Below the pieces are notes generated by a model that was given only the letters and a program-made list of their open reading frames with translations, was not told the DNA's origin and did not search any database. From Agromyces ramosus (lineage in GTDB: Bacteria > Actinomycetota > Actinomycetes > Actinomycetales > Microbacteriaceae), in contig NZ_SGWY01000001.1 of NCBI RefSeq assembly GCF_004216665.1, forward strand, positions 1,240,001 through 1,304,000: a DNA stretch of 64,000 nt, read 5' to 3'. The position numbers and the translations under genes were made by a program. Each line of letters opens with the position of its first letter. Positions within the stretch are counted from its first letter, which is position 1. This document shows positions 1,409 through 57,944 of this stretch, piece after piece.

Positions 1409-3385
1409 ATGGAACGCATGCTCAAGCGGGCGGGGATGGCCGCGTCCGTCGCCCTCCTCACCATCGCAGGGGTGCTCGGCAGTACCCTCGTCGCACAGGC
1501 CGACACCCTGCAGGACACGATCGGCGACACCGTGGCCGACGCACTGGTCCTGGAGGCCGGAAGCCAGGCGACGGCGAGCGCGGGGATCCGCGTCATTGGC
1601 AACGCTGCACAGCAGGACCCCGACCCCGGCTGCAACATCGATGCGGGTGAGAGCGCCCTGGTGCTCGACGTGATCACGCCGACGGGCATCACCGCCACGC
1701 CCGACCCGCTCTCGATCACGGCCTGCGGGACGGACTTCCCGGTCGTCTTCAAGGCCGGCGCGAACGCGGTGAGCGGCACCGTCACGGTGGTAGTGACCTC
1801 GAGCCCCGCGGGTGGGGGCACGTACGTCAACCACGTGAGCATCCCCATCACGGTCACCCAGCCGCCGCCCGCCAACACCAAGCCGACGGTCTCGGTGCAG
1901 GGCGTCATCGCGGGGACCTACGAGATCGGATCCGTTCCCGCGGCGACCTGCGCCGTCTCCGACACCGAGGACGGCCCCAGCTCCTTCCCCGCCGCCATCA
2001 GCGGCACCCTCGTGCACGGCCTCGGCACGCAGACCGCGACGTGCGACCACACCGACACGGGCGGACTCGCCGCCGACACCGCCACGGTCACGTACACGGT
2101 CGGCGACACGGGCCTGCCGACGATCAGCCACGTGCTGAGCCCCGCCAACGCCAACGCCAACGGCTGGTATCGCACCAACGTGGGCGTGGCGTTCACCTGC
2201 GCCGACAGCGGTTCGGGCATCCAGTCCTGCGGGCCCGACACCGTGCTGTCCGAGGGCGCCGATCAGTCGTACACCGGCACCGCGACCGACTGGGCGGGCA
2301 ACAGTACCTTGGACACCGTCTCGAACGTCGACATCGACACGACCATCCCGGAGATCACCTCGTCGCTCACCCCCGGCGATGGACCCAACCCCCACGGCTG
2401 GTACCGGGCCGCTGTGGTCATCGACTTCGAGTGCACCGACGACCTGTCGGGCATCGAGAGCTGCACTGGCGACACGACCATCGGCCAGGGAGGCCCCGTC
2501 TCGAGCACGGGAACCGCCACCGACCGCGCAGGCAACACCGCCGAGGCCACTGTGACGGGGATACGCGTCGACACGAGCGCCCCGGAGATCACCGCGACGC
2601 TCACCCCCGGCGATGGACCCAACTCCAACGGCTGGTACAACAAGCCCGTCCATGTTGGCTTCACCTGCAACGACGCGCTCTCCGGGATCGACACCTGCGA
2701 GGGGGACGTCGACCTCGGCGAAGGCGAGAACCTCTCGGCGACCGGCACCGCGACCGACCTGGCGGGCAACGTCACGGAGCGCGAGGTGTCCGACATCGAC
2801 ATCGACCTCACCGCGCCGGACGTCGCGTTCTCGGGTGCGTTCGGCTCGGCGTACTCCTTCGGCGACGTGCCGCCGGCGCCGTCCTGCACCGCCGACGACG
2901 AGCTGTCGGGTCTGGTGTCGCCATGCGTCGTGAGCGGTTACGGCACCGGCGTGGGCGAGCACACCCTGACGGCCACCGCGACCGACCGCGCCGGCAACGT
3001 CGCGACGCAGACCCTGCATTACACGGTTCTCGCGTGGAACCTCGCCGGCTTCTTCAATCCGGTCGACATGGGCGGCGTGTGGAACACGGTGAAGAACGGC
3101 AGCACGGTGCCCCTGAAGTTCGAGGTGTTCTCGGGTGCCACCGAGCTGACCAGCACCGCCGCGATCGATCGCTTCACGGTGGTCTCGACCGCCTGCCCCG
3201 GCGCCTCGGCCGCCACCGACCCGATCGAGTTCACCACGACCGGCGCAACCGCGCTGCGCTATGACGCGACTGCGGGCCAGTTCGTCCAGAACTGGGCGAC
3301 GCCGAAGAAGGCGGGCACATGCGTCGTGGTCACGATGACGACCGACGACGGGTCCAGCATCGCCGCGAAGTTCATCCTCAAGTAG
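1409..3385 (+). CDS. Secreted repeat protein with C-terminal PxKF domain
   Basis: A 658-residue exported protein. The signal peptide (start MERMLKRAG) ends at AQA near residue 30. A Cys-containing Ig-like region spans about 60-235. Three related repeats of 77-78 residues then begin near residues 237, 313 and 390, each with GWY, a pair of Cys residues and the phrase T(G)TATDxAGN, typical of bacterial Ig/HYR-like adhesive or spacer modules; a diverged fourth begins near 468. The last ~110 residues (about 548-658) hold the PxKF domain, with FFNPVDMGG and VPLKFEV visible. The ATG at 1409 follows a GAAGGTGG ribosome-binding stretch. Proteins of this type are cell-surface or secreted; the ligand is unknown. 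No sortase motif or C-terminal anchor is seen, so it may be released. Confidence 0.75.
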   Translation: MERMLKRAGMAASVALLTIAGVLGSTLVAQADTLQDTIGDTVADALVLEAGSQATASAGIRVIGNAAQQDPDPGCNIDAGESALVLDVITPTGITATPDPLSITACGTDFPVVFKAGANAVSGTVTVVVTSSPAGGGTYVNHVSIPITVTQPPPANTKPTVSVQGVIAGTYEIGSVPAATCAVSDTEDGPSSFPAAISGTLVHGLGTQTATCDHTDTGGLAADTATVTYTVGDTGLPTISHVLSPANANANGWYRTNVGVAFTCADSGSGIQSCGPDTVLSEGADQSYTGTATDWAGNSTLDTVSNVDIDTTIPEITSSLTPGDGPNPHGWYRAAVVIDFECTDDLSGIESCTGDTTIGQGGPVSSTGTATDRAGNTAEATVTGIRVDTSAPEITATLTPGDGPNSNGWYNKPVHVGFTCNDALSGIDTCEGDVDLGEGENLSATGTATDLAGNVTEREVSDIDIDLTAPDVAFSGAFGSAYSFGDVPPAPSCTADDELSGLVSPCVVSGYGTGVGEHTLTATATDRAGNVATQTLHYTVLAWNLAGFFNPVDMGGVWNTVKNGSTVPLKFEVFSGATELTSTAAIDRFTVVSTACPGASAATDPIEFTTTGATALRYDATAGQFVQNWATPKKAGTCVVVTMTTDDGSSIAAKFILK

Positions 3386-3406
3386 GCGACGCCGACGGCT
3401 GATTGA

Positions 3407-3446
3407 AACGAGGGGCCTCCGGCGCGTGCGCCCGAGGCCCCTCGTT
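3407..3446. terminator. Bidirectional terminator
   Basis: Perfect 13-base arms AACGAGGGGCCTC (3407-3419) and GAGGCCCCTCGTT (3434-3446) flank a 14-base loop. It lies between the convergent PxKF gene and the FAD oxidoreductase operon. A run of A before and T after the stem gives each strand a partly T-rich exit. Confidence 0.75.
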
Positions 3447-3452
3447 CGCGCC

Positions 3453-4916
3453 CTACGAGTCGAACCCGAGGCCGAGCGCGTCGAGCGTCTTCAGGAGCAC
3501 GTTGCGGCGACCCTGGCGGTGATCGGCTCGATCGAGCGACCAGCGCGTCAGGTTGATGCCGATGGATGCGGCCGGCTCGGGCGGGAACGGCCACGGCCGG
3601 TCGCGCACCATCTCGAGCGAAGTACGCTCGGTGTCGAGGCCGCGCAGCCGGTCGAGCATGACGTCGGCGGCGAAGCGGGCGGCACCGACGCCGAGCCCGG
3701 TGAAGCCGGCCGCGTACGCGACCTTTCCGCCCCGAGCGAGGCCGTAGAACGCGCAGAACCGGGTGCTCGCGTCGATCGCCCCCGACCAGCGGTGCGTGAA
3801 TCGGGTGCCCTCGAGCTGCGGGAACGTCGTGAGGAAGTGGCTCGCGAGCTTCTCGAATGAGGAGCGACGGTCCTCGTACTCGGGCCTGATCCGGCCGCCG
3901 GCGTGGTAGATCGCGTCGTACCCACCGAACAGGATGCGGCCGTCGGCACTGAGCCGGTAATAGTGGAACTGGTTGGCCAGGTCGCTCACGCCCTGGCGGT
4001 TGCGCCAGGCGAGCTCGGCCAGGCGGTCGTCGCCGAGCGGCTCGGTCATGAGCACGTAGTCGTACACCGGCACGGTCATCAGCCGATTCCGCTTCAGCAG
4101 CGACGGGAACACGTTCGTCGCGAGCACGGCGCGATCGGCGCGCACCACGCCACGGTCGGTGACCACCTCGACGCGCGAACCGGCATCGTCGATGCGGCGC
4201 ACGGGCGTGCGCTCGTGCACGACCACGCCGGCCTCGACGATGACGCGGGCGAGTTCGAGTGCCAGCTTCGCGGGATGCAGGATCGCGTTCGTGCGGCGGT
4301 CCCACCGGCCCGCGAGGTAGGTGGGCGACGCGATCTCGGCGCGTACCGACGACTCGTCGAGGAAGGCGTCGCGTCCGTCGTCGGAGTCGGGTCCGGCGAT
4401 CCACGGCACCTGGTGCGGCTCGACCGCCACCGCGAGCATGCCGGTGCGCTCGAAGTCCACGTCCATGCGGTAGCGGCGCACGGTCGCCTCGATCTCGTCG
4501 AGATTCTCCAGCCCGAGTCGCGTGAGGGTGTCGATCTCGTCGGGCCAGCGCGAGCGGCCGTTCTCGTCGCCGTGGGTGAGGCTCGCTTCGCAGAACCCGC
4601 CGTTGCGTCCGGATGCCGCCCAGCCCACGCTCTCGGCCTCGAGCAGCACCACGCGCAGGCCGGGCTGCCGCTCGACGGCACGCAGCGCGGTCCAGAGCCC
4701 GGTGTAGCCGGCGCCGACGATCACGAGGTCGGCCTCGACGTCGCCCACGAGCGGCCCGTGGTCGACCCGCCGGCCCCGCACATCGTCGAGCCAGAACGGC
4801 GCCGCCACGGTGCCGCCGAGCGAGTGGGCGATCGCCGCGGGGCTGGGCTGCGAGCGCTCGAACACGGTCGTGCGCAGAGCGGGGCGCCGTGACCGGTCGA
4901 CGATGGTGGCGTTCAT
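3453..4916 (-). CDS. FAD-dependent oxidoreductase (DAO family)
   Basis: A 487-residue protein of the D-amino-acid-oxidase-like flavoprotein family (DAO, PF01266). The FAD-binding Rossmann motif VIVGAGYTG lies at residues 65-73, after a ~60-residue N-terminal extension. Further DAO-type segments include the GRNGG stretch near residue 100 and the C-terminal AAGFTGLGV loop. Such enzymes oxidise amines, amino acids or N-methyl amino acids using FAD and usually O2. It is the last gene of a minus-strand operon; its ATG overlaps the stop of the ABC ATPase gene (ATGA, 4913-4916), so translation is coupled. The context suggests it oxidises a compound released by the operon's amidohydrolase or brought in by its transporter. 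The substrate cannot be read from sequence. Confidence 0.85.
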   Translation of the reverse strand: MNATIVDRSRRPALRTTVFERSQPSPAAIAHSLGGTVAAPFWLDDVRGRRVDHGPLVGDVEADLVIVGAGYTGLWTALRAVERQPGLRVVLLEAESVGWAASGRNGGFCEASLTHGDENGRSRWPDEIDTLTRLGLENLDEIEATVRRYRMDVDFERTGMLAVAVEPHQVPWIAGPDSDDGRDAFLDESSVRAEIASPTYLAGRWDRRTNAILHPAKLALELARVIVEAGVVVHERTPVRRIDDAGSRVEVVTDRGVVRADRAVLATNVFPSLLKRNRLMTVPVYDYVLMTEPLGDDRLAELAWRNRQGVSDLANQFHYYRLSADGRILFGGYDAIYHAGGRIRPEYEDRRSSFEKLASHFLTTFPQLEGTRFTHRWSGAIDASTRFCAFYGLARGGKVAYAAGFTGLGVGAARFAADVMLDRLRGLDTERTSLEMVRDRPWPFPPEPAASIGINLTRWSLDRADHRQGRRNVLLKTLDALGLGFDS

Positions 4917-6607
4917 GCGGGGACTCCCTCGGTGCGATCGATGGCGGCGAGTGCATCGAGGTCCCAGTCGGGCCTCGGCACGGAGTCGAGCAGTAGCCGC
5001 GTGTACGGATGCCGCGGACGCTCGAGCAGCGTGGCAGTGGCGCCGCGCTCGACGATCTCGCCGCTGCGCATCACGACGGTCTGCTCGCACACGCGGCGCA
5101 CGACCGCGAGGTCGTGGCTGATGAAGAGGACCGTGAGGCCTCGCTCCCGTCGGATGCCGGCGACGAGGTCGAGCACCTGCGCCTGCACCGACACGTCGAG
5201 GGCGCTCGTCGCCTCGTCCATCACGAGCACGTCGGGCTCGACGGCGAGCGCGCGGGCGATCGCCACCCGCTGCCGCTGACCACCCGACAGGGTGCGCGGC
5301 ACGGCGGTGGCGTGCCGCTCGCCGAGGCCGACCTGCTCGAGCAGGTCGAGCACGCGGGTCCGCGCGTCCCGGCTCGTGAGGGTCGAGTGCAGCCGCAGGG
5401 TGTCCTCGATGGCGCGGCCGGCCGAGATGCGGGGGTCGAGCGACAGGTACGGGTCCTGGAAGACCATCTGCACCGAGCGGGAATGGGCGAGCCGCTCCGC
5501 CCGCCTGCGTGGCATGGCCGTTCGCACGACACCGTCGACGAGGATCTCGCCCGTGTCGGCGGACTCCAGGCCGACGATCATGCGTGCGAGCGTCGACTTG
5601 CCCGATCCCGACTCCCCCACCACGGCGAGCGCGCTGCCGAGCGGGATCTCGATCGACGCGTCCACCACGGCACGGACCGGGGGCTTGCCGTGCAGGTGGT
5701 ACGTCTTCGCGATGGAGCGCACGTCGAGCATGGGGGCTTCGGCGTCGACCGCCCGTGGGAGCTCGACGACGCTGCGGGGCGCGGATGCGGCATCCGTCGC
5801 CTCGCCGATCACGACCGGACCGAGCGGCCCGATGGAAGCGATCGTCGGCGTCGCCGCCACAAGCCGACGCGTGTACGCGGCCTGCGGGTTGCGGAACACC
5901 CGACGGGCGTCGCCCTCCTCCTCGACCCGGCCCGCGTTCATCACGTAGACCCGATCGCAGATCGAGGCGGCGAGGTTGAGGTCGTGCGTGATGAAGAGCA
6001 TGCCCATGCCGCGGGTCGCGCGCTGCTCGCCGAGCACCGAGATGATCTCGGCCTGGGTGGTGACGTCGAGCGCCGTGGTCGGCTCGTCGCAGATCAGCAG
6101 GCGCGGGGAGCTCGTGAGCGCGCCGGCGATCATGACACGCTGCAGCATGCCGCCCGACAGCTCGTGGGGGTACTGGCGCAGGTGGTCCTCTGGACGGGGC
6201 AGGCGAACCGCCCGCAGCAGCTCGACGGCGCGCGCCTCGGCGTCGGACTTCGACCTGCCGTCGACGAGCCGGAGCGTCTCGGTGAGGTGGTCGCCGATGG
6301 TGCGCATCGGGTTGATGCCCGCTCGCGGGTCCTGGAAGACCATGCCGGCGCTCGATCGCCGGACCGCGAGCAGGTCGCCGGCCGGTGCACCGAGCACCTC
6401 GCGCCCGTCGAGGCGAACTGAGCCGCCGGTGGTCGCTCCACGGGGCTGCATGCCGAGCACCGACCTGGCCGTGAGCGACTTGCCGGAGCCGGATTCGCCG
6501 ACCAGGCCGACGGTCTCGCCCACGGCCACCGTGAGCGAAACCCCGTCGAGGAGGCGGGTCCCGTCGGGCAGGTCGAGGGTGTAGTCGGAGATGTCGAGGA
6601 GTGTCAT
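4913..6607 (-). CDS. ABC transporter, two fused ATP-binding domains (oligopeptide type)
   Basis: A 564-residue protein holding two complete ABC ATPase domains, equivalent to DppD and DppF joined. Domain 1 has Walker A GESGSGKS (about residue 38), signature LSGGMLQR and Walker B LLICDEPTTALD. Domain 2 has Walker A GESGSGKSTL (about residue 330), signature LSGGQRQR and Walker B VLVMDEATSALD. Both end in the region typical of oligopeptide/nickel importers. It powers import through the two permeases encoded just upstream. It starts within the stop of the DppC-like gene (ATGA, 6604-6607) and ends within the start of the oxidoreductase gene. Confidence 0.93.
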   Translation of the reverse strand: MTLLDISDYTLDLPDGTRLLDGVSLTVAVGETVGLVGESGSGKSLTARSVLGMQPRGATTGGSVRLDGREVLGAPAGDLLAVRRSSAGMVFQDPRAGINPMRTIGDHLTETLRLVDGRSKSDAEARAVELLRAVRLPRPEDHLRQYPHELSGGMLQRVMIAGALTSSPRLLICDEPTTALDVTTQAEIISVLGEQRATRGMGMLFITHDLNLAASICDRVYVMNAGRVEEEGDARRVFRNPQAAYTRRLVAATPTIASIGPLGPVVIGEATDAASAPRSVVELPRAVDAEAPMLDVRSIAKTYHLHGKPPVRAVVDASIEIPLGSALAVVGESGSGKSTLARMIVGLESADTGEILVDGVVRTAMPRRRAERLAHSRSVQMVFQDPYLSLDPRISAGRAIEDTLRLHSTLTSRDARTRVLDLLEQVGLGERHATAVPRTLSGGQRQRVAIARALAVEPDVLVMDEATSALDVSVQAQVLDLVAGIRRERGLTVLFISHDLAVVRRVCEQTVVMRSGEIVERGATATLLERPRHPYTRLLLDSVPRPDWDLDALAAIDRTEGVPA

Positions 6608-7467
6608 GCGGGGATCCCTCCGCCGATGCGGTCGGAGACTTCCTCGCCGATCACGTTGACGGCGACGACGACGATCACGACGGCCACGGCGGGCACGATC
6701 GCCGGCAGGAAGTGCCCGCCGAGCAGGCCGGCCTGGGCCTCGTTGATCATCGCGCCCCAGTCGGCGGTCGGCGCCTGCACGCCGAGGCCGAGGAACGACA
6801 GGGCCGCGAGCTCGGCGAGCACGTAGCCGAAGTTCAGCGTCGACTGGGCGCCGACGATGGGTGTCACGTTGGGCAGCACGCGGCGCGTGGCGATCCAGCC
6901 CCCCGAGAAGCCCTGCACCCGGTACGCGGAGACGTACGGGCGGCTCCGCTCCGAGGTGACGAGCGAGCGGGTGAGCCTGGCGACGAAGGGCGCATAGGCG
7001 ATGCTCATGGCGATCACCGGCGCCACGAGGCCCTTGCCGAAGAGCGCGACCGCCATGATCGCGATGAGCAGCGCCGGGAATGCGAAGACGACGTCGAAGA
7101 CGCGGCCGAGCACGGCGTCGATCCACCCGCCCCGCCAGCCGGCGAGGAGCCCGAGGAGGATGCCGAGGATCGTCGACGAGACGACGACGATCAGGGGTCC
7201 GAGCAGCGCGGTGCGCGCGCCGAAGATCATGCGGCTCAGGAGGTCGCGGCCCAGCGCGTCGGTGCCGAGCCAGTGCGCGGCGGTGGGTCCCGAGTACACG
7301 GCGGAGAGGTCGACCTGGTCGGGATCGTACGGTGCGATCCAGGGGGCGAACACGGCGGCGAGCGTCATCAGTGCGACGACGCCGAGGCTGACGACGAAGG
7401 CGGCGTCCGCACGGTGCACGCGCGGTGCACGAAGCACCTCGAGCGCGAGCGTGGGAGTGGCGGTCAT
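6604..7467 (-). CDS. ABC transporter permease, DppC type
   Basis: A 287-residue inner-membrane permease of the oligopeptide/dipeptide family (BPD_transp_1). It has an N-terminal membrane segment (FVVSLGVVALMTLAAV), the family-typical periplasmic phrase HWLGTDALGRDLLSR, and further helices in the C-terminal half; the EAA-loop region is near YRVQGFSGGWIATRRVLPN. It forms the translocation pore with the DppB-type partner encoded directly upstream, whose stop it overlaps (ATGA at 7464-7467). Confidence 0.92.
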   Translation of the reverse strand: MTATPTLALEVLRAPRVHRADAAFVVSLGVVALMTLAAVFAPWIAPYDPDQVDLSAVYSGPTAAHWLGTDALGRDLLSRMIFGARTALLGPLIVVVSSTILGILLGLLAGWRGGWIDAVLGRVFDVVFAFPALLIAIMAVALFGKGLVAPVIAMSIAYAPFVARLTRSLVTSERSRPYVSAYRVQGFSGGWIATRRVLPNVTPIVGAQSTLNFGYVLAELAALSFLGLGVQAPTADWGAMINEAQAGLLGGHFLPAIVPAVAVVIVVVAVNVIGEEVSDRIGGGIPA

Positions 7468-8420
7468 CTGGCACCAGCTCCTGCGGCGGACCGGGGGTCG
7501 ATCCAGGGTTCGAGGATGTCGATGATCGCGTTCACGACGACGAACGCGAACACGACGAACAGCACGATCGCCTGGACGACCGGGAAGTCGAGGCGGTCGA
7601 CCGACTGCACGAGGAGCGAACCGATGCCGGCGAGCCCGAAGGCCGCCTCGACGATGGAGCTCGCCACGAGGAGGCCGGCCACGAGGAGCCCGCTCACCGT
7701 GAGGATCGGCCCGATCGCGTTGCGGAGCACGTGCCGGCGGATCACCGTGCCGCGCTTCAGACCGCGACTCGTGGCGACCTCGACGTGCTCGCGGCCGAGC
7801 TGGTCGACCATCGACGAGCGGGTCACCTTGCCGACGAGCACGACGAACACGACCGCGAGGGCGATCGACGGCAGCACGAGGTGGTACAGCGTGTCGAGGA
7901 ACCCCTCACCCGAGCCGAACGACGGAAACCAGCCGAGCTGCACCGCGAACACCGCGATGAGCACGATCGATCCGACGAACGACGGGATCGCGCCGAGCAT
8001 CGTGAGGAAGACGAGCACCGATCGATCGAGCACGCGGCCGCGCTTGAGCGCGGCGATGATGCCCGCCGTGAGCCCGACGATCGCGATCATGGCGCCGGCC
8101 ATGAGGACGAGCCCGAGCGTCACGGGCAGGCGCTCGCCGATCACCGTGGTCACGTCCTGCCGGTACTGCAGCGACCGGCCGAAGTCGCCCACCAGCACGC
8201 CTCCGAGCCACTGCAGGTACTGCTGCCATGGCGGGAGGTCGAGCCCGTACTGAGCGGTGACCTGCGCGATCGCCTCGGGCGTCGGCTTGCGCCCGCGGAG
8301 CAGGAAGCTCACCGGGTCGCCCGGCACCAGGAAGCGCGAGAAGAAGACCAGCAGCGAGGCCAGGAACAACGTGAGGAGCAGGGCGCCGAGCTTGCCGGCC
8401 ACCCGGCGGCCGGCGGTCAT
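7464..8420 (-). CDS. ABC transporter permease, DppB type
   Basis: A 318-residue permease with six probable membrane helices. Family marks are the N-terminal FFSRFLVPGDPVSFL segment, the GDFGRSLQYRQDV stretch typical of DppB proteins, and the EAA-like loop REHVEVATSRGLKRGTVI. It pairs with the DppC-type permease encoded downstream. A 48-base gap separates its ATG from the stop of the binding-protein gene, the longest gap inside the operon; no hairpin was noted there. Confidence 0.92.
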   Translation of the reverse strand: MTAGRRVAGKLGALLLTLFLASLLVFFSRFLVPGDPVSFLLRGRKPTPEAIAQVTAQYGLDLPPWQQYLQWLGGVLVGDFGRSLQYRQDVTTVIGERLPVTLGLVLMAGAMIAIVGLTAGIIAALKRGRVLDRSVLVFLTMLGAIPSFVGSIVLIAVFAVQLGWFPSFGSGEGFLDTLYHLVLPSIALAVVFVVLVGKVTRSSMVDQLGREHVEVATSRGLKRGTVIRRHVLRNAIGPILTVSGLLVAGLLVASSIVEAAFGLAGIGSLLVQSVDRLDFPVVQAIVLFVVFAFVVVNAIIDILEPWIDPRSAAGAGAR

Positions 8421-8468
8421 GAGGCGACCGCCGATCCGCCTGGCCGGCCGAGGTGCCGACGGATGCCG

Positions 8469-10124
8469 CTACCGGGCGCCAATGGTGGCCGCCCACGGGT
8501 AGTACAGGAACGCGATCGACGGCGCGACGCCCGTGATGCGCTCCCCGAGGAACAGGGGCATCGGACCGGCGTACAGCGGCAGCCATGGGAGCTGCTCGTT
8601 GGCGATGCGCTGGGCCTCGGCGGTCTTCTCGGAGCGAGCCGCGGGGTCGTCGATCGCGATCGCCTCGTTCACGACCTGATCGAACTCGGGGTCGGACCAT
8701 CCGCCGTAGTTGCTGAACTCGCCGGTGCGCAGCACGCTGTACATCTCGAGCGGGTCGGGGCTCGACAGGTACCAGGACGTGTAGAAGAGATCCACGCCCT
8801 CGCGTGCGCTCGGGTCGGAGAAGAGCGCGGTGTAGGCGTTCGGCGTGATCGTCTCGATGGTGGCCTTCAGGCCGATCGACTCGGCGGCCGCGGCGGTCGC
8901 CTGCGCGATCACGTTGAAGTCGCTGCTGATCGGCGCGGTGACGAGCACGATCTCCTCGCCGACGACCCCGGCCTCCTCCACGAGCTGCTTCGCCGCGGCG
9001 AGGTCGTACGGATACTCCGCGAGGCCCTCGAAGGCCGTCGCGAGGCCGGCCTCGCTCGCTCCGACCCAGACGGACTCGGTCGTGAGCGCATCGGTCACCT
9101 CCCCGTAGCCCTTGGCGGCGGCGGAGACGATCCCCTCGCGGTCGAGGGCCATGAGCAGCGCCGCGCGCACGTTCACGTCGCCGAGCGGCCCTTCGAGATC
9201 GCTCACGATGAGGCTCGACACCGCCGTGCTCATGCCGAAGAGCATGTCGCCGACGCTCGAGTTCTCGAGCTGCGGAACCGCCTCGAACGGGACCATCCAG
9301 CCGCCGTCGACCTCGCCCGAGGCCAGGGCGTTGACGCGGGCATTGGCGTCGTTCATGAAGATGAACTCGACCTCGCCCGACTTGGCCCGGAGCGACTCGT
9401 CCCAGTAGTCGTCGTAGCGGGTGAGGGTGATGCGTTCGCCCGCCTTCCACTCCGTGAGGCTGAACGGCCCCGTGCAGTTCACGCCGCCGGTCGAGTTGCC
9501 GTAGTCGGCGCCCTTCTCGGCGAGGGTGGCCGCCGACTCGATGACGCCGGCCGAACCGCCCATCGCGAGGTTGAACTGCGAGTCGGGAAGCGACTCGGTC
9601 ACGGTGACCTCGCGGTCGCCGGTCTGCTCGATCGAGGCGACGTTCTGGTACACCGAGTACCACGACGAGCCGACGGCGGGGTCGAGGTGGCGGTTCATGG
9701 AGGCGACCACGTCGGCGGCCGTGAGCGGCGTGCCGTCGTGGAATGTCACGCCGTCGCGGATCGTGTACACCCACGTCGTCGGCGTCGGATGCTCGAACGC
9801 CTCCGCGAGCCCGGGCGACAGCGAGTAGTCGGGGTTGAGCCGCAGCAGCGACTCGCACACGTTCGCGAGCACCTGGTTGTCGGCGTAGTCGAACGCGTAG
9901 GCGTAGTCGAGCGAGAAGGGCTCGGCGTAGCTCACCCACGAGAACGAGTCGATGTCGCCAGATGGGGCGTCGGTCGTGGCGGTGAGCTCCCAGTCGACGT
10001 TCGTGTCGGCGTCGGGTTCGGGGCCGGTGCAGCCTGCGAGCACGAGGGCGGCGCTGACGCCGCCGGCGACCATCGCGACGGTGCGACGAGCTCGCCGCCG
10101 GGCGGGGGTGGATGGGCTGGACAT
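8469..10124 (-). CDS. Substrate-binding lipoprotein of the oligopeptide-type ABC importer
   Basis: A 551-residue SBP_bac_5 family protein. The signal peptide has twin arginines and ends in lipobox LAGC near residue 32, followed by an acidic linker. Family-typical segments include NVCESLLRLNPDYSLSPGLA near the N-terminus and VTFHDGTPLTAADVVAS about 50 residues later. It captures substrate outside the cell and delivers it to the permease pair. It lies 15 bases downstream of the amidohydrolase gene in the same operon. Family members bind peptides, opines, glycosides or nickel; the ligand here is unknown, and the partner enzymes suggest an amide- or amine-containing compound. Confidence 0.9.
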   Translation of the reverse strand: MSSPSTPARRRARRTVAMVAGGVSAALVLAGCTGPEPDADTNVDWELTATTDAPSGDIDSFSWVSYAEPFSLDYAYAFDYADNQVLANVCESLLRLNPDYSLSPGLAEAFEHPTPTTWVYTIRDGVTFHDGTPLTAADVVASMNRHLDPAVGSSWYSVYQNVASIEQTGDREVTVTESLPDSQFNLAMGGSAGVIESAATLAEKGADYGNSTGGVNCTGPFSLTEWKAGERITLTRYDDYWDESLRAKSGEVEFIFMNDANARVNALASGEVDGGWMVPFEAVPQLENSSVGDMLFGMSTAVSSLIVSDLEGPLGDVNVRAALLMALDREGIVSAAAKGYGEVTDALTTESVWVGASEAGLATAFEGLAEYPYDLAAAKQLVEEAGVVGEEIVLVTAPISSDFNVIAQATAAAAESIGLKATIETITPNAYTALFSDPSAREGVDLFYTSWYLSSPDPLEMYSVLRTGEFSNYGGWSDPEFDQVVNEAIAIDDPAARSEKTAEAQRIANEQLPWLPLYAGPMPLFLGERITGVAPSIAFLYYPWAATIGAR

Positions 10125-10139
10125 GATGCTCCTCAGGGG

Positions 10140-11819
10140 TCAGCTCGTGCGGGAGTAGGCGAGCTCGCCGTCGATCCACGTGGCGACCACGGTGGAGCGG
10201 TGGATCTCGCCTGCGGGGAGGCCGAACGGATCGGGGTCGAGCACGACGAGGTTCGCGAGGTACCCCTCGCGGACGTAGCCGGTGTCGTGGTCGCGGTGGT
10301 TCACGTAGGCGGAGCCCGAGGTGTAGGCCGCCATCGCGGTGGCGAGGTCGAGGCGCTGATGGGCGCCGCCGAGCGGCTCGGAATCCAGGCCGGGTGCGAC
10401 CCGGGTGACCGCGATGTGGATCGCGTGCATCGGGTCGGCGCTCGAGACGGGCCAGTCGCTGCCCGCCGCGAGTCGGGCGCCGTTGCGCACGAGATCGCCG
10501 AACGGGTACTGCCGCGCCTCGGCGCCATCCTGCAGGAACGGGAGCGTCAGCTCGTCGATCTGGTCCTCGTGCGTGGCCCAGAGCGCCTGGATGTTGGCGA
10601 CCGCCTCGAGGTCGGCGAACCGTGCGGTCTCGCGCTCCTCGACGACCTGCAGGTGCGCCAGGTGGTGCCGCCCGTCGGTGGCGCCGTTGGCCTCGCGTGC
10701 GGCCTCGACCGCGTCGAGCGCCTCGCGCACCGCACGGTCGCCGAGGGCGTGGAAGTGCACCTGGAATTCGGCGGCGTCGAGCTGGGTGACGATCTCGCGC
10801 AGCCGCTCGGGATCGATGAAGGAGAGGCCTCGGTTGCCGGTGTCGTGTCCGTGCACGTCGCGATACGGGGTGAGCATGGCCGCAGTCTGGTTCTCGGCCA
10901 CGCCGTCGACCATGATCTTCGTCGTGCCGAGCGTGAAGCGCCCGTGGTCGAGCGCGGCGAACTCGGCGCGTCGGCGCACCATCTCGTCGAGCTGCTCGAG
11001 ACCGCCCGCGCGTTCCCACCACTGGGCGCCGACGACGTGCACCTTCAACGTGCCCTCGGCCAGCGCGCGGCGGTAGACGGATGCCACGTCCTGAACACCC
11101 CCGAGGCCGGTGCCGACCCATGCGTCCTGCCATCCGGTGATGCCGAGCGCGATCAGATCCTCCTGCGCACGGAGCAGGCCGGCGTAGGCGAGGTCGGCGC
11201 CGATCGGCGGGCGCACGTGGTCGAACAGGGCGCCGGCGCCCTCGTGGAACGTGCCGGCCGGGGTGCCGTCGGGCTCGCGCTCGATGCGGCCGTCGGCCGG
11301 GTCGGGGGTGGACGCGTCGAGGCCCGCCGCCCGGATCGCCGCGGTGTTCGCCCACGTCGAGTGGTGGTCGCGGCTCATGAGCAGCACCGGCCGATCGGGC
11401 ACGACCGCATCGAGCAGCGCGCGCACGGGCGCACCGCCCGGGAAGTGGTCCATCGACCAGCCGCCGCCCTGGATCCAGGCCTCGTCGGGGTTCGCGTCGG
11501 CGTACGCCTGCACGTGGGCGACGGCGTCGGCGGCATCCGTCGCCTCGGTCAGGTTGCACATGAGCAGCTCGACGCCGGCGCTCACCGGATGCACGTGCGC
11601 GTCCTGGAAGCCGGGGCTCAGCAGTGCGCCGTCGAGGTCGACCACACGAGTGTGCTCGTCGATGTGCGCGGATGCCTCGGGCTCGGGCACCACCGCAAGG
11701 ATGCGGTCGCCCGCCACGGCCACCGCGTGGCCGTGCAAGGGCTCGCCGGTTCCGGTGAACACGGCTCCGCCGGTGAACAGTACGTCGGCTGCAGGCAACG
11801 GGCGCCCTCGCTTCCTCAT
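10140..11819 (-). CDS. YtcJ-type metal-dependent amidohydrolase
   Basis: A 559-residue amidohydrolase of the YtcJ/exoenzyme-regulatory (Amidohydro_3) family. It has the small N-terminal beta domain, the metal-binding DAHVHP motif near residue 77, the HFHALGDRAVR motif in the second half, and GSDWPVSSADPM near the C-terminal end. Such enzymes hydrolyse N-acyl or cyclic amide bonds; there is no signal peptide, so it works in the cytoplasm. The ATG at 11819 was chosen as the first in-frame ATG downstream of the proposed promoter (-10 TACGCT at 11840-11845); upstream in-frame codons fall inside the operator. It is the first gene of the six-gene operon and is divergent from a TetR regulator. Its product could feed the FAD oxidoreductase at the operon end. 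Confidence 0.85.
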   Translation of the reverse strand: MRKRGRPLPAADVLFTGGAVFTGTGEPLHGHAVAVAGDRILAVVPEPEASAHIDEHTRVVDLDGALLSPGFQDAHVHPVSAGVELLMCNLTEATDAADAVAHVQAYADANPDEAWIQGGGWSMDHFPGGAPVRALLDAVVPDRPVLLMSRDHHSTWANTAAIRAAGLDASTPDPADGRIEREPDGTPAGTFHEGAGALFDHVRPPIGADLAYAGLLRAQEDLIALGITGWQDAWVGTGLGGVQDVASVYRRALAEGTLKVHVVGAQWWERAGGLEQLDEMVRRRAEFAALDHGRFTLGTTKIMVDGVAENQTAAMLTPYRDVHGHDTGNRGLSFIDPERLREIVTQLDAAEFQVHFHALGDRAVREALDAVEAAREANGATDGRHHLAHLQVVEERETARFADLEAVANIQALWATHEDQIDELTLPFLQDGAEARQYPFGDLVRNGARLAAGSDWPVSSADPMHAIHIAVTRVAPGLDSEPLGGAHQRLDLATAMAAYTSGSAYVNHRDHDTGYVREGYLANLVVLDPDPFGLPAGEIHRSTVVATWIDGELAYSRTS

Positions 11820-11839
11820 CGAACGGGTCGGACTCGGCG

Positions 11840-11869
11840 AGCGTACCCATCGCCCAACACCGATGTCAA
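11840..11869 (-). promoter_or_regulatory. Promoter of the amidohydrolase operon
   Basis: On the minus strand, -35 TTGACA (11869-11864), an 18-base spacer and -10 TACGCT (11845-11840) give a good vegetative promoter. The -35 lies inside one arm of the 35-bp palindrome, so binding of a repressor there would block it. Confidence 0.65.
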
Positions 11870-11889
11870 CACCGTTGACATCGGTGTTG
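11855..11889. promoter_or_regulatory. 35-bp palindromic operator between divergent genes
   Basis: Perfect 15-base inverted arms, CAACACCGATGTCAA and TTGACATCGGTGTTG, are separated by CACCG. It lies between the amidohydrolase operon and the tetR gene. Each arm contains a TTGACA that reads outwards as the -35 of one of the two divergent promoters. Size and position fit an operator bound by one or two TetR-family dimers controlling both directions. Confidence 0.75.
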
Positions 11890-11905
11890 TCCATTTCGTT
11901 ATGCT
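11875..11905 (+). promoter_or_regulatory. Promoter of the tetR gene
   Basis: TTGACA at 11875-11880, inside the right arm of the palindrome, is followed after 19 bases by TATGCT (11900-11905). Overlap with the operator implies autoregulation. Confidence 0.5.
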
Positions 11906-11993
11906 GGGCTTCCATCGCGTCCGCGACTGGCGCCCTGCCACAGGGGGTCGCGGGCGTGGCAGCATGGGCCATGACACGACGGGGGCGACACCG

Positions 11994-12686
11994 ATGACGA
12001 CTGCGACGCGATCCACCGCCGGCCGCGCGGGCCGCGGCGGAGGCAAGGCGCGCCTCGACCGCGACGCGATCGTCGCCGCCGGACTCAAGCTCGCCGCGCA
12101 GCCGGGCGTCGGCTCCGTCTCGGTGCGCGACCTCGGCGCCGAGCTCGGCGCCGACCCGACAGCCATCTACCGCCATTTCCGCGGCAAGGACGAGCTCATG
12201 CGCTCGCTCCTCGACGAGCTCATCGGCATGAGCCTGCAGCGCGTCGACGCGGAGCCCGACGACTGGCGCGGTCGGCTCACGCAGGTGGCCGTCTCCACCC
12301 TCGAGATGTTCGCGACCTACCCGGCGATCGGCGTCGAGGCGACGGTGCTCACGACCGGCGGTCCCCATGAACTCGACGTCATCGAGTTCATGCTCGACGC
12401 CTTCTCGCGCGCCGGCCTCGAGGGCGAGGATCTCGTGAGCCACTACGCGCTCATGGCGTCGCACACCCTGTCGAGCGCGGCGGGCATCGCCCGAAGCCGC
12501 AGCGAGCGCGGAACCGGGCCGTCGGCGCCCAGTCCGTGGATCGAGAGCCCGCTGCTCGTCGACCCGGCGCGGCATCCGCTCATCGCCTCGCTCGGGCCCA
12601 GGCTGCGCGCCCTCGACGACCGTGAGCTCTTCATGCTCGGCGTGGAGTCCGTGCTCGATTCGGCGGAGCGCGCGGGGGCGCGCTGA
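11994..12686 (+). CDS. TetR-family transcriptional regulator
   Basis: A 230-residue protein. The helix-turn-helix is in residues ~20-65, with SVRDLGAELGADPTAIYRHF matching the TetR HTH consensus. The remaining ~160 residues form an all-helical ligand-binding domain of the TetR_C type. The ATG at 11994 follows a gggggcg stretch nine bases upstream; an in-frame ATG at 11964 is an alternative adding 10 residues. It is divergent from the amidohydrolase operon across the 35-bp palindrome and is the obvious candidate repressor of both sides, with a substrate or intermediate of that operon as probable inducer (inference). Confidence 0.9.
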   Translation: MTTATRSTAGRAGRGGGKARLDRDAIVAAGLKLAAQPGVGSVSVRDLGAELGADPTAIYRHFRGKDELMRSLLDELIGMSLQRVDAEPDDWRGRLTQVAVSTLEMFATYPAIGVEATVLTTGGPHELDVIEFMLDAFSRAGLEGEDLVSHYALMASHTLSSAAGIARSRSERGTGPSAPSPWIESPLLVDPARHPLIASLGPRLRALDDRELFMLGVESVLDSAERAGAR

Positions 12687-12726
12687 GGGCGGCCCCGGGT
12701 CAGCCGCCTCGGGCTACACTGCGGGA

Positions 12727-13188
12727 ATGGCCGACGCGCCGGCATATCGGATCTGGCCGCCTGTGGCGCTTGGTGTTCCGCTCCTGATCGGCCTCGGCAT
12801 CACCGCCGGGGTGGGCGACCCGATCGCGTTGCCGGTCACGCTCTCACGATCGGTGGCGGTCGTCCTCATCCTGGCCTTCGCCGTCTGGAACGGGTGGGCG
12901 ATCTGGCTCATGGCCCGGCATCGAACAGCCCTGCTGCCCGGTGGCTCGACGCGCACGATCCTCGACCGGGGCCCGTTCGGGGTGAGCCGCAACCCGCTCT
13001 ACCTGGGCCTGATCGCGTTGGATGCGGCACTGGCCTTGCTGTGGCCGTCGTTCTGGGCACTCGTGCTCACGCCGGTCGGCGTCGTGGCGTTGTGGTGGGG
13101 GGCCATCCGCCCCGAGGAGCGGTATCTCAGCGCGAAGTTCGGCAGGGAGTACGACGCCTACCGCGCTCGCGTGCGGCGCTGGCTGTAG
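12727..13188 (+). CDS. PEMT/ICMT-like membrane methyltransferase
   Basis: A 153-residue integral membrane protein with about four hydrophobic segments. The RNPLYLGLIAL motif (about residues 91-101) and the C-terminal GREYDAYRARVRRWL are hallmarks of the isoprenylcysteine carboxyl methyltransferase / phosphatidylethanolamine N-methyltransferase superfamily; the PEERYL stretch completes the SAM-binding end. The substrate is unknown. The start is supported by TACACT (12715-12720) six bases before the ATG, indicating a leaderless mRNA. It lies 40 bases after tetR but with its own promoter. Confidence 0.8.
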   Translation: MADAPAYRIWPPVALGVPLLIGLGITAGVGDPIALPVTLSRSVAVVLILAFAVWNGWAIWLMARHRTALLPGGSTRTILDRGPFGVSRNPLYLGLIALDAALALLWPSFWALVLTPVGVVALWWGAIRPEERYLSAKFGREYDAYRARVRRWL

Positions 13189-13299
13189 TCATCCCGAAGC
13201 GGGATCGACGTGCTGGCTGGGCCCGACGACGTGCGTACCCGCGGGCATAGATTGAACGCAGGGCGGTGCGCCCGCACGGCTCCGAGCGAAAGGATCGGC

Positions 13300-14124
13300 A
13301 TGACGGAGCACGACGTCACCTCGAGGTGGAGACGGTTCTGGGAACGGGGCGGGTGGTGGCGTTCGCTCCTGCTCGTGGTCGCCTACTACCTGCTCTTCCA
13401 GGCGGGCTCGTTGCTGTTCGCACCGCTGCTCGCAGGGGTCGACGACCCGGCGATGATCGTGTTCGTCGGCACGGCGCTGCCCATCGCGCTCGGCGGGCTC
13501 ATCCTCGTCGCGTTCGGGTGGTCGACGGGGTGGCTCCGCGAACTGTTCGGGCCTCAGCCGATCCGCGGACGGGCCTGGATGTGGATCGCGGTTGCCGTCG
13601 TGCTCCTGTTCAACGTGCTGCGGTTCGCGACGGTCGACTACGGCGAGGCCGGAGCGGGCATGGTGATCGCCTGGTTGGTCGCGGGACTGTTCATCGGGTT
13701 CGCGGAAGAAGTCCTGACGCGCGGGTTCGTGGTGAACCTCATGCGCAAAGCGGGGTACCGCGAGATCGTGGTCGCCGTGGTCTCGGCCGCGCTGTTCGCG
13801 GTGCTGCATTCGGGCAATCTGCTGTCGGGGCAGTCGCCCCTCGCGACGCTGCTCCAGCTCGTCTACACCTTCGCGTTCGGGCTGTGCATGTACTTGGCTC
13901 TGCGGGTGACGGGAAACCTCATCTGGCCGATCCTGCTGCACGCGACCACTGACCCCTCGATCTTCCTGCAGACCACCTATCCGGCGGACAGCCCACTCAC
14001 GGGCATCGCGGCATTGGGCAACCCGGCGGTCATCGTCACCGGACTCGTGCTCCTCATCTTCATCCGCGGCCGAGTGAGCCTGCCGGCCGGCCCGAACGTC
14101 ACGAGCGATCGAGTGTCGGCATAG
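13300..14124 (+). CDS. CPBP-family intramembrane metalloprotease
   Basis: A 274-residue membrane protein with about eight hydrophobic segments. It carries all the CPBP (Abi/CAAX protease) motifs: EExxxR (E136, E137 in FAEEVLTRG), FxxxH (H170 in FAVLHSGN) and a third motif with H214 in HATTD. These residues bind the catalytic metal inside the membrane. Family members cleave CAAX-type or other membrane proteins, or act in bacteriocin self-immunity; no partner is encoded next door. A GAAAGGA ribosome-binding site precedes the ATG. A strong hairpin follows the gene. Confidence 0.88.
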   Translation: MTEHDVTSRWRRFWERGGWWRSLLLVVAYYLLFQAGSLLFAPLLAGVDDPAMIVFVGTALPIALGGLILVAFGWSTGWLRELFGPQPIRGRAWMWIAVAVVLLFNVLRFATVDYGEAGAGMVIAWLVAGLFIGFAEEVLTRGFVVNLMRKAGYREIVVAVVSAALFAVLHSGNLLSGQSPLATLLQLVYTFAFGLCMYLALRVTGNLIWPILLHATTDPSIFLQTTYPADSPLTGIAALGNPAVIVTGLVLLIFIRGRVSLPAGPNVTSDRVSA

Positions 14125-14131
14125 TCGAGAA

Positions 14132-14156
14132 GGGCCGGCGGGGCGGCCGCCGGCCC
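14132..14156 (+). terminator. Terminator of the CPBP gene
   Basis: Perfect 10-base arms GGGCCGGCGG / CCGCCGGCCC around a 5-base loop, eight bases after the CPBP stop codon, with additional outer pairing (GAGA/TCTC). Confidence 0.65.
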
Positions 14157-14188
14157 GTCTCGGCATGTCCGGTGTCATGGCCGGAAAG

Positions 14189-14234
14189 GAGAAGCCCCAA
14201 CTGGACCGGAATTCCGGGCCACTTGGGGCTTCTC
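14189..14234. terminator. Long hairpin terminator next to tRNA-Ser(GCU)
   Basis: Arms GAGAAGCCCCAA (14189-14200) and TTGGGGCTTCTC (14223-14234) pair perfectly. Pairing continues inward past one mismatch, and the loop holds the palindrome CCGGAATTCCGG. It begins six bases from the 3' end of the minus-strand tRNA gene, so it most likely ends that transcript; it may also stop readthrough from the CPBP side. Confidence 0.7.
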
Positions 14235-42930: not shown

Positions 42931-43014
42931 TCACGTGACTCCCCCGCGGTGGCCGGCCCACCCGGCCACCGCGGGATCACGTCTGCACCCAACCCGGAAG
43001 CCAGAGGAACGACC

Positions 43015-57878: not shown

Positions 57879-57895
57879 GCGGATGAGGCGACACC

Positions 57896-57924
57896 GGAGC
57901 CCGCGTGCATGCCACGCGGGCTCC
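57896..57924. terminator. Bidirectional terminator
   Basis: Perfect 12-base arms GGAGCCCGCGTG and CACGCGGGCTCC around a 5-base loop, between the convergent GH31 and transglutaminase genes. Confidence 0.75.
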
Positions 57925-57944
57925 GACCCGTGTCGGGGGAGTGC

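Follow-up and report, generated by a model that had tools for sequence, protein, structure and literature searches.

The region between a tetR-family gene and a divergent amidohydrolase gene in Agromyces ramosus raises the question of whether one symmetric DNA element can serve as operator and promoter for both directions of transcription and, if so, what the repressor would recognize in it. Throughout, the window denotes the whole stretch of DNA analyzed, 64,000 nucleotides in length. A preliminary description had placed two outward-facing TTGACA boxes in a single 35-bp palindrome with perfect 15-base arms, and had proposed that one protein binding event would switch both directions. The palindrome is real: positions 11855–11889 form a perfect 35-bp palindrome whose arms, CAACACCGATGTCAAC and GTTGACATCGGTGTTG, are 100% complementary around a 3-nt spacer (ACC), and are 16 nt long, one longer than had been given. 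Each arm does carry an outward TTGACA, at 11875–11880 (+) and 11869–11864 (−), and the range 11840–11905 is the span from one −10-like hexamer to the other.

It is unlikely that a palindrome of this size arose by chance. A whole-genome search finds the 35 bp once, with the inner 31 bp having a single genomic occurrence even when up to 3 mismatches are allowed. Within the 64-kb window, it is the sole inverted repeat with perfect arms of at least 16 nt and a spacer of at most 20 nt, as compared to 1 in total across 60 dinucleotide shuffles of the window. We note that the window also has two G+C-rich inverted repeats, at 42943–42975 and 57895–57925, whose perfect arms measure at least 13 nt, and that no RNA element reaches its gathering score within 3300–14200. 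We dropped a terminator or attenuator reading of the palindrome, since it lies upstream of both predicted transcript starts. The genes on either side are as follows:

11994–12686, + strand: TetR-family regulator P0001, 230 aa, TetR_N and TetR_C_1 (domain profiles, predicted structure)
10140–11798, − strand: amidohydrolase (Amidohydro_3), probable TTG start at 11798 behind GAGGAAGCGAGG (domain profile, start-motif conservation)
8469–10124, − strand: ABC solute-binding protein (SBP_bac_5; domain profile)
7464–8420, − strand: ABC permease (BPD_transp_1; domain profile)
6604–7467, − strand: ABC permease (BPD_transp_1, OppC_N; domain profile)
4913–6607, − strand: fused double ABC ATPase (two ABC_tran stretches, oligo_HPY; domain profile)
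3453–4916, − strand: FAD-dependent oxidoreductase (DAO), probable last gene of the operon (domain profile)

The row of amidohydrolase, oligopeptide-type ABC transporter, and FAD-oxidoreductase genes is probably one operon. The open frame of the amidohydrolase extends to an ATG at 11819; translation nevertheless probably starts at the TTG at 11798, because GAGGAAGCGAGG is present just upstream of the amidohydrolase start in 13 of 25 Agromyces loci (with variants in the others, and mostly followed by GTG, TTG, or ATG), compared to only 7 of 25 for ATGAGGAA, which contains the ATG at 11819 in the window. Just past the end of the DAO gene, an inverted repeat with 13-nt arms and no T run lies at 3407–3446, where a terminator scan found none; it is possibly an operon-end hairpin. 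A 1753-codon antisense open frame (7425–12686, +) covers part of the operon, extends into tetR, and is most likely a composition artifact given the G+C content of 71.5%.

P0001 matches both TetR_N (PF00440, 43.2 bits against a cut-off of 24) and TetR_C_1 (PF02909, 30.0 bits against a cut-off of 21), and falls below the equivalog cut-off for the tetracycline repressor proper (NF010319, 38.8 bits against 265). Its best named TetR matches are from A. humi (83%) and Agromyces sp. Soil535 (81%). The predicted structure (pLDDT 91.8, pTM 0.85, 41 sequences) is all-helical and TetR-like, with 2hxi, ActR, SCO7222, SimR, and TetR as the nearest solved folds. In the model, a long helix (144–172) is followed by a non-helical stretch (173–194), a short helix (195–205), and then the last helix; judged by its helix boundaries alone, this arrangement would resemble that of TetR more than that of QacR. 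The CprB paper associates TetR-family operators that take a dimer of dimers with the lack of an insertion between helices 8 and 9 (PMC4150764).

Comparison across loci shows that the conserved entity is an 11-bp unit, CAACnnnGTTG, which repeats every 12 bp. Scored by the match to its eight defined positions, the three units of the window obtain 7, 8, and 7, and the palindrome is thus a three-unit array in a 12-bp register:

11855–11889, no strand: 35-bp palindrome, three operator units in 12-bp register (inverted-repeat and unit scoring)
11855–11865, no strand: left operator unit CAACACCGATG, 7/8 to CAACnnnGTTG (unit scoring, row L003)
11867–11877, no strand: central operator unit CAACACCGTTG, 8/8, core of TGTCAACnnnGTTGACA at 11864–11880 (unit scoring and conservation)
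11879–11889, no strand: right operator unit CATCGGTGTTG, 7/8 (unit scoring, row L003)
11891–11901, no strand: weak and doubtful fourth register position, 5/8 (unit scoring, row L003)

Upstream of tetR, a unit matching at no fewer than seven of the eight positions is found at 125 of 131 loci, and the TetR proteins of the six misses are only 32–39% identical. After dropping these six for their weak core and a further 23 as duplicates or for short flanks, 102 distinct sites were retained. Some of these, from Streptomyces-like loci, have their center of symmetry between two units (8 of the 15 being exactly GCGCAACnnnGTTGwCAACnnnGTTGCGC), and A. tardus (L022) has four consecutive units, each matching at seven or more positions; it was these two forms that led us to run a test of the 12-bp register. 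The mean unit match over the 102 sites is 7.83 of 8 at the center, 5.33 at −12, 5.34 at +12, and 3.78 at +24, compared to 0.87–2.86 at the other offsets beyond ±12 (tested to 48); inside ±12, offsets 3 and 9 give 3.0–3.8, where the pattern overlaps the core. Counting only the bases outside the 17-mer, the left flank matches at 3.51 of 6 positions against 1.57 in shuffled sites (highest of 200 shuffles, 1.82), and the right flank at 3.83 of 6 against 1.84 (highest of 200, 2.15), with a standard deviation of about 0.1; at least five of these six outer positions match on the left in 28 of 102 sites and on the right in 37. The shuffle tests ignore relatedness, and thinning to 61 sites gave the same picture. 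As the best unit was picked from about 345 positions per locus, cases of low TetR identity such as L136 and L137 could be chance; without these two loci, the means for the remaining 100 sites at −12, 0, +12, and +24 are 5.39, 7.85, 5.38, and 3.76, respectively. The longest run of adjacent units (at a match of 6/8 or better) is one unit in 10 sites, two in 63, three in 28, and four in 1. The earlier proposal of one binding event on one palindrome thus stands insofar as it posits a shared operator, and needs amending insofar as it posits a single site, since relatives hold one to four units; on this comparative reading, a phased array would replace the single event.

The promoters appear to be built into the array itself. 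TTGACA is what forms at the junction of consecutive units (GTTG-A-CA), and the central unit therefore holds both outward −35 boxes, 5 bp apart:

11864–11869, − strand: −35 box TTGACA of the amidohydrolase operon promoter (sequence, conservation)
11840–11845, − strand: −10 box TACGCT of the amidohydrolase operon promoter, spacer 18 (TANNNT conservation in Agromyces)
11875–11880, + strand: −35 box TTGACA of the tetR promoter (sequence, conservation)
11900–11905, + strand: −10 box TATGCT of the tetR promoter, spacer 19 (TANNNT conservation in Agromyces and Streptomyces-like sites)

A generic promoter scan of 11600–12150 returned no promoter, because one hexamer has 3/6 of the consensus and the other a spacer of 19, both of which are beyond the limits of the scan. 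Despite this result, both promoters are supported by the conserved spacing of their −10 boxes. On the left, TANNNT occurs at spacer 17 or 18 in all 25 Agromyces loci, and on the right at spacer 19 in 23 of 25, with no other spacer within 14–23 used on either side. Across the 87 non-Streptomyces sites, the left box is kept in 78 and the right −10 at spacer 19 in only 32, and the TTGACA hexamers themselves are conserved in 76 (left) and 48 (right). The 15 Streptomyces-like sites have the right box at spacer 19 in 13 cases, and no left TANNNT at a spacer of 14–23 from the chosen unit; in 14 of these 15 sites (L100–L114), AGGAGTGAAC is found to the left of the operator. The operator overlaps both promoters, as judged solely by sequence and by the conservation of the −35/−10 spacing.

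The preliminary description had named a lack of conservation of the palindrome in relatives with the same gene pair as one finding that would refute it, and this check did not refute it. The TetR ortholog is present in 25 of 60 Agromyces genomes at 58–100% identity (the next matches being near 30%), and the core TGTCAACnnnGTTGACA lies beside tetR, between it and the divergent gene, in all 25, with 20 exact copies and five matching at 13/14. The exact 17-mer occurs in 20 of the 60 genomes, every one of which has the TetR ortholog; the exact core is found in none of the 35 genomes that lack this TetR, and a reversed control pattern has no match in any of the 60. Of 80 named loci, 76 have a divergent amidohydrolase gene next to tetR (within about 300 bp, allowing for unaligned ends), with a match to the binding protein behind it in 71; in this count, L090 was scored by its stronger-matching paralog. 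The site is kept at each of the four exceptions (L059, L092, L094, and L099), and it stays with tetR where the partner gene differs (L059 and L099), with L059 having a different neighbor gene and a weaker site (7/8). At three loci, in Paeniglutamicibacter terrestris (L090), Arthrobacter sp. MYb227 (L092), and Glutamicibacter uratoxydans (L094), tetR is present as two neighboring paralogs, and each paralog has a divergent target and an operator of its own.

Taking these data into account, we consider it highly probable that the region is a shared operator/promoter, at which TetR would act as an autorepressor, with its dimers loading at a 12-bp step and occluding the two −35 boxes. As an operator/promoter, this reading is well supported by conservation, as is the shared control region for TetR autoregulation and the operon that had been proposed at the outset; binding and switching are what we infer from it. 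In this mechanism, a TetR dimer would recognize the 11-bp unit CAACnnnGTTG, and a dimer on the central unit would block sigma at both −35 boxes, with more dimers loading on the flanking units in 12-bp steps and thereby widening the occlusion across the spacers of the two promoters. The dimers would be freed from the DNA by an inducer, which may be a substrate or product of the operon and of the amine or amide type, such that tetR and the operon would be switched together. As the −35 boxes are back to back, two RNA polymerases could hardly be bound at once, and the two directions would be expected to compete. Loading beyond the central dimer may, however, be optional or absent, as the flanking units of the window have one mismatch each and 10 of the 102 sites are single units. 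In addition, adjacent 17-bp footprints at a 12-bp step would overlap by 5 bp.

A single TetR dimer on the central 17-bp core, with the flanking units only raising local affinity and no stepwise loading, is a variant of our preferred explanation, so that the likelihoods of the two overlap; we consider it a serious contender, albeit one that is probably not correct. It would account well for the central unit being nearly invariant (1.00 at columns −5 to −3 and 0.98/0.99 at +4/+5, in 87 non-Streptomyces sites chosen for that match) and the flanks far less so, and is consistent with the nearest folds including TetR and SimR, which the CprB paper assigns to a class with one dimer on a 15–17-bp operator (PMC4150764), such that dimers repeated every 12 bp would be out of the ordinary for the subfamily. 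It does not lead one to expect flanking units that keep exactly to the 12-bp register to the left and right of the center, well beyond what shuffles give, nor the exact two-unit form of the Streptomyces-like sites, nor at least two adjacent units (each at a match of 6/8 or better) in 92 of 102 sites, bearing in mind that two of the eight unit positions are shared with the −35 box. Were the 35 bp instead one composite operator for a dimer of dimers of the QacR, CprB, or DarR type, symmetric about its center, the fully mirrored arms of 4 of 88 sites would be explained, and there is precedent in known operators of this kind, which span 22–32 bp (PMC4150764), and in DarR, which binds overlapping palindromes with its dimers in contact (PMC10636190). 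A fixed pair, however, predicts neither runs of one to four adjacent units nor a symmetry center that lies on a unit in some sites and between units in others, and most arms are not mirrored beyond what column composition gives, making this arrangement rather unlikely.

Two further explanations dispense with the adjacent TetR altogether. If back-to-back consensus −35 boxes simply happened to be palindromic, with no repressor involved, the conservation of TTGACA would follow directly; yet CAACnnnGTTG is retained where the hexamer is TTGACT or TTGCGC, the satellite units fall outside of the hexamers, and the presence of the site tracks that of tetR, and we thus regard a pure promoter constraint as extremely improbable. 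Binding by a regulator other than the adjacent TetR is only marginally less improbable, given that exact cores are confined to Agromyces genomes with this TetR, that the site remains by tetR when the partner differs, and that there is one site per tetR where the gene is doubled.

The perfect symmetry of the window's arms calls for a separate explanation. Four of 88 sites have all nine flank positions mirrored, with the letters differing between sites: that of the window, that of L124, and the second site of both L092 and L094. The expected number is 0.12, and none of 2000 shuffles reached four; thinned to 61 sites, the numbers are 3 and 0.13, respectively. These counts use the second L090 site (5903) and leave out L136 and L137. 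Sites below 8/9 are mirrored at a mean of 3.99 positions against 3.82 when shuffled, a value reached by 203 of 2000 shuffles. The mirroring includes the nnn positions at the unit center, bases that a TetR dimer presumably does not read: all three are mirrored in 13 of 88 sites, as compared to 4.2 expected, a number reached by none of 2000 shuffles. The mirroring in the window may tentatively be ascribed to templated mutation, that is, to hairpin correction of an imperfect palindrome rather than selection for symmetry, as the excess sits in the tail of the distribution, with sites below 8 near expectation, and extends to the unit centers. We note, however, that the shuffle breaks relatedness, that the events are few, and that selection for a symmetric reading could also be at work, and we consider this origin doubtful on balance. 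Among the matches listed from open-licence PubMed Central texts, nothing was found on hairpin-templated mirroring. Similarly speculative, and in our view improbable as a whole, is the broader proposal that dimers of a TetR_C_1 repressor load one after another on CAACnnnGTTG units repeated every 12 bp, the junctions of which form the −35 boxes, with the number of units setting the strength of repression and evolving by gain, loss, and hairpin-templated mirroring.

The unit also occurs away from tetR. In two Agromyces genomes, where an amino-acid permease gene is followed by a flavin amine oxidase gene, a second exact core lies upstream of the oxidase gene. Such an oxidase (E ≤ 1e-100) is found in 6 of the 60 genomes, all of which have the TetR ortholog, and these hold 10 copies of it in total. 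Every one of the six has the array ahead of a single copy, with a TANNNT box at spacer 18, and the remaining four copies have no array. Two of the genomes came up by way of the site, leaving four as independent cases. The sites are:

L141 2163–2179 and L142 2209–2225, also L147–L152: array sites before flavin amine oxidase, in six Agromyces genomes

Since the array precedes a flavin amine oxidase, amine or amide use may be the theme of the regulon. The window's own genome has no match to this oxidase at E ≤ 1e-100. There, the 17-mer with up to 2 mismatches finds one site besides the palindrome, against 2 for the reversed control, and a two-unit pattern with up to 3 mismatches matches at 16 places, as compared to 5 for its control; of the 16, two belong to the palindrome, a 5.5-kb contig has one with 2 mismatches, and the other 13 have 3 mismatches. 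We note that 14 of these two-unit matches (G000:C6:916-938 and 13 further places), compared to the 5 of the control, lie outside of the palindrome; we do not claim a second target in this genome.

In Tn10-type tetR/tetA systems, the TetR repressor gene lies divergent from its target, with operators over both promoters and autoregulation, whereas here 11-bp units recur at a 12-bp step and the central one holds the −35 boxes of both directions. No paper on this operator was found in open-licence PubMed Central texts, among the matches listed; CAACNNNGTTG occurs within a Desulfovibrio Zur site (PMC545781) and TGTCAAC in a primer (PMC6534649). SimR, the DNA-bound form of which (3zql) is among the nearest folds to the P0001 model along with Streptomyces ActR, is described in the CprB paper as binding a 17-bp operator with one dimer (PMC4150764); what sets the present system apart from both SimR and ActR is its array of several units next to an amidohydrolase/ABC-importer row. 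QacR, CgmR, MS6564, and CprB share with it the longer operators, of 22–32 bp and bound by two dimers, cooperatively for QacR and CprB according to the CprB paper (PMC4150764), but theirs is a fixed pair of dimers, as opposed to runs of one to four units in a 12-bp register. In DarR, two dimers touch on overlapping palindromes, one half-site of which is degenerate (PMC10636190), and the site is 20 bp long with the half-site TXC, as compared to a different half-site here.

The unit provides a search pattern for a regulon that would comprise the amidohydrolase/ABC row as well as the flavin amine oxidase of six Agromyces genomes, and the array offers a natural series for how the number, spacing, and symmetry of units set cooperativity and repression. 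Most descriptions of TetR-family operators give a single palindrome or a single composite site, the CprB paper being an example (PMC4150764), whereas here a single unit is repeated in a strict 12-bp register and in varying number, and is kept across several actinobacterial genera along with the promoters.
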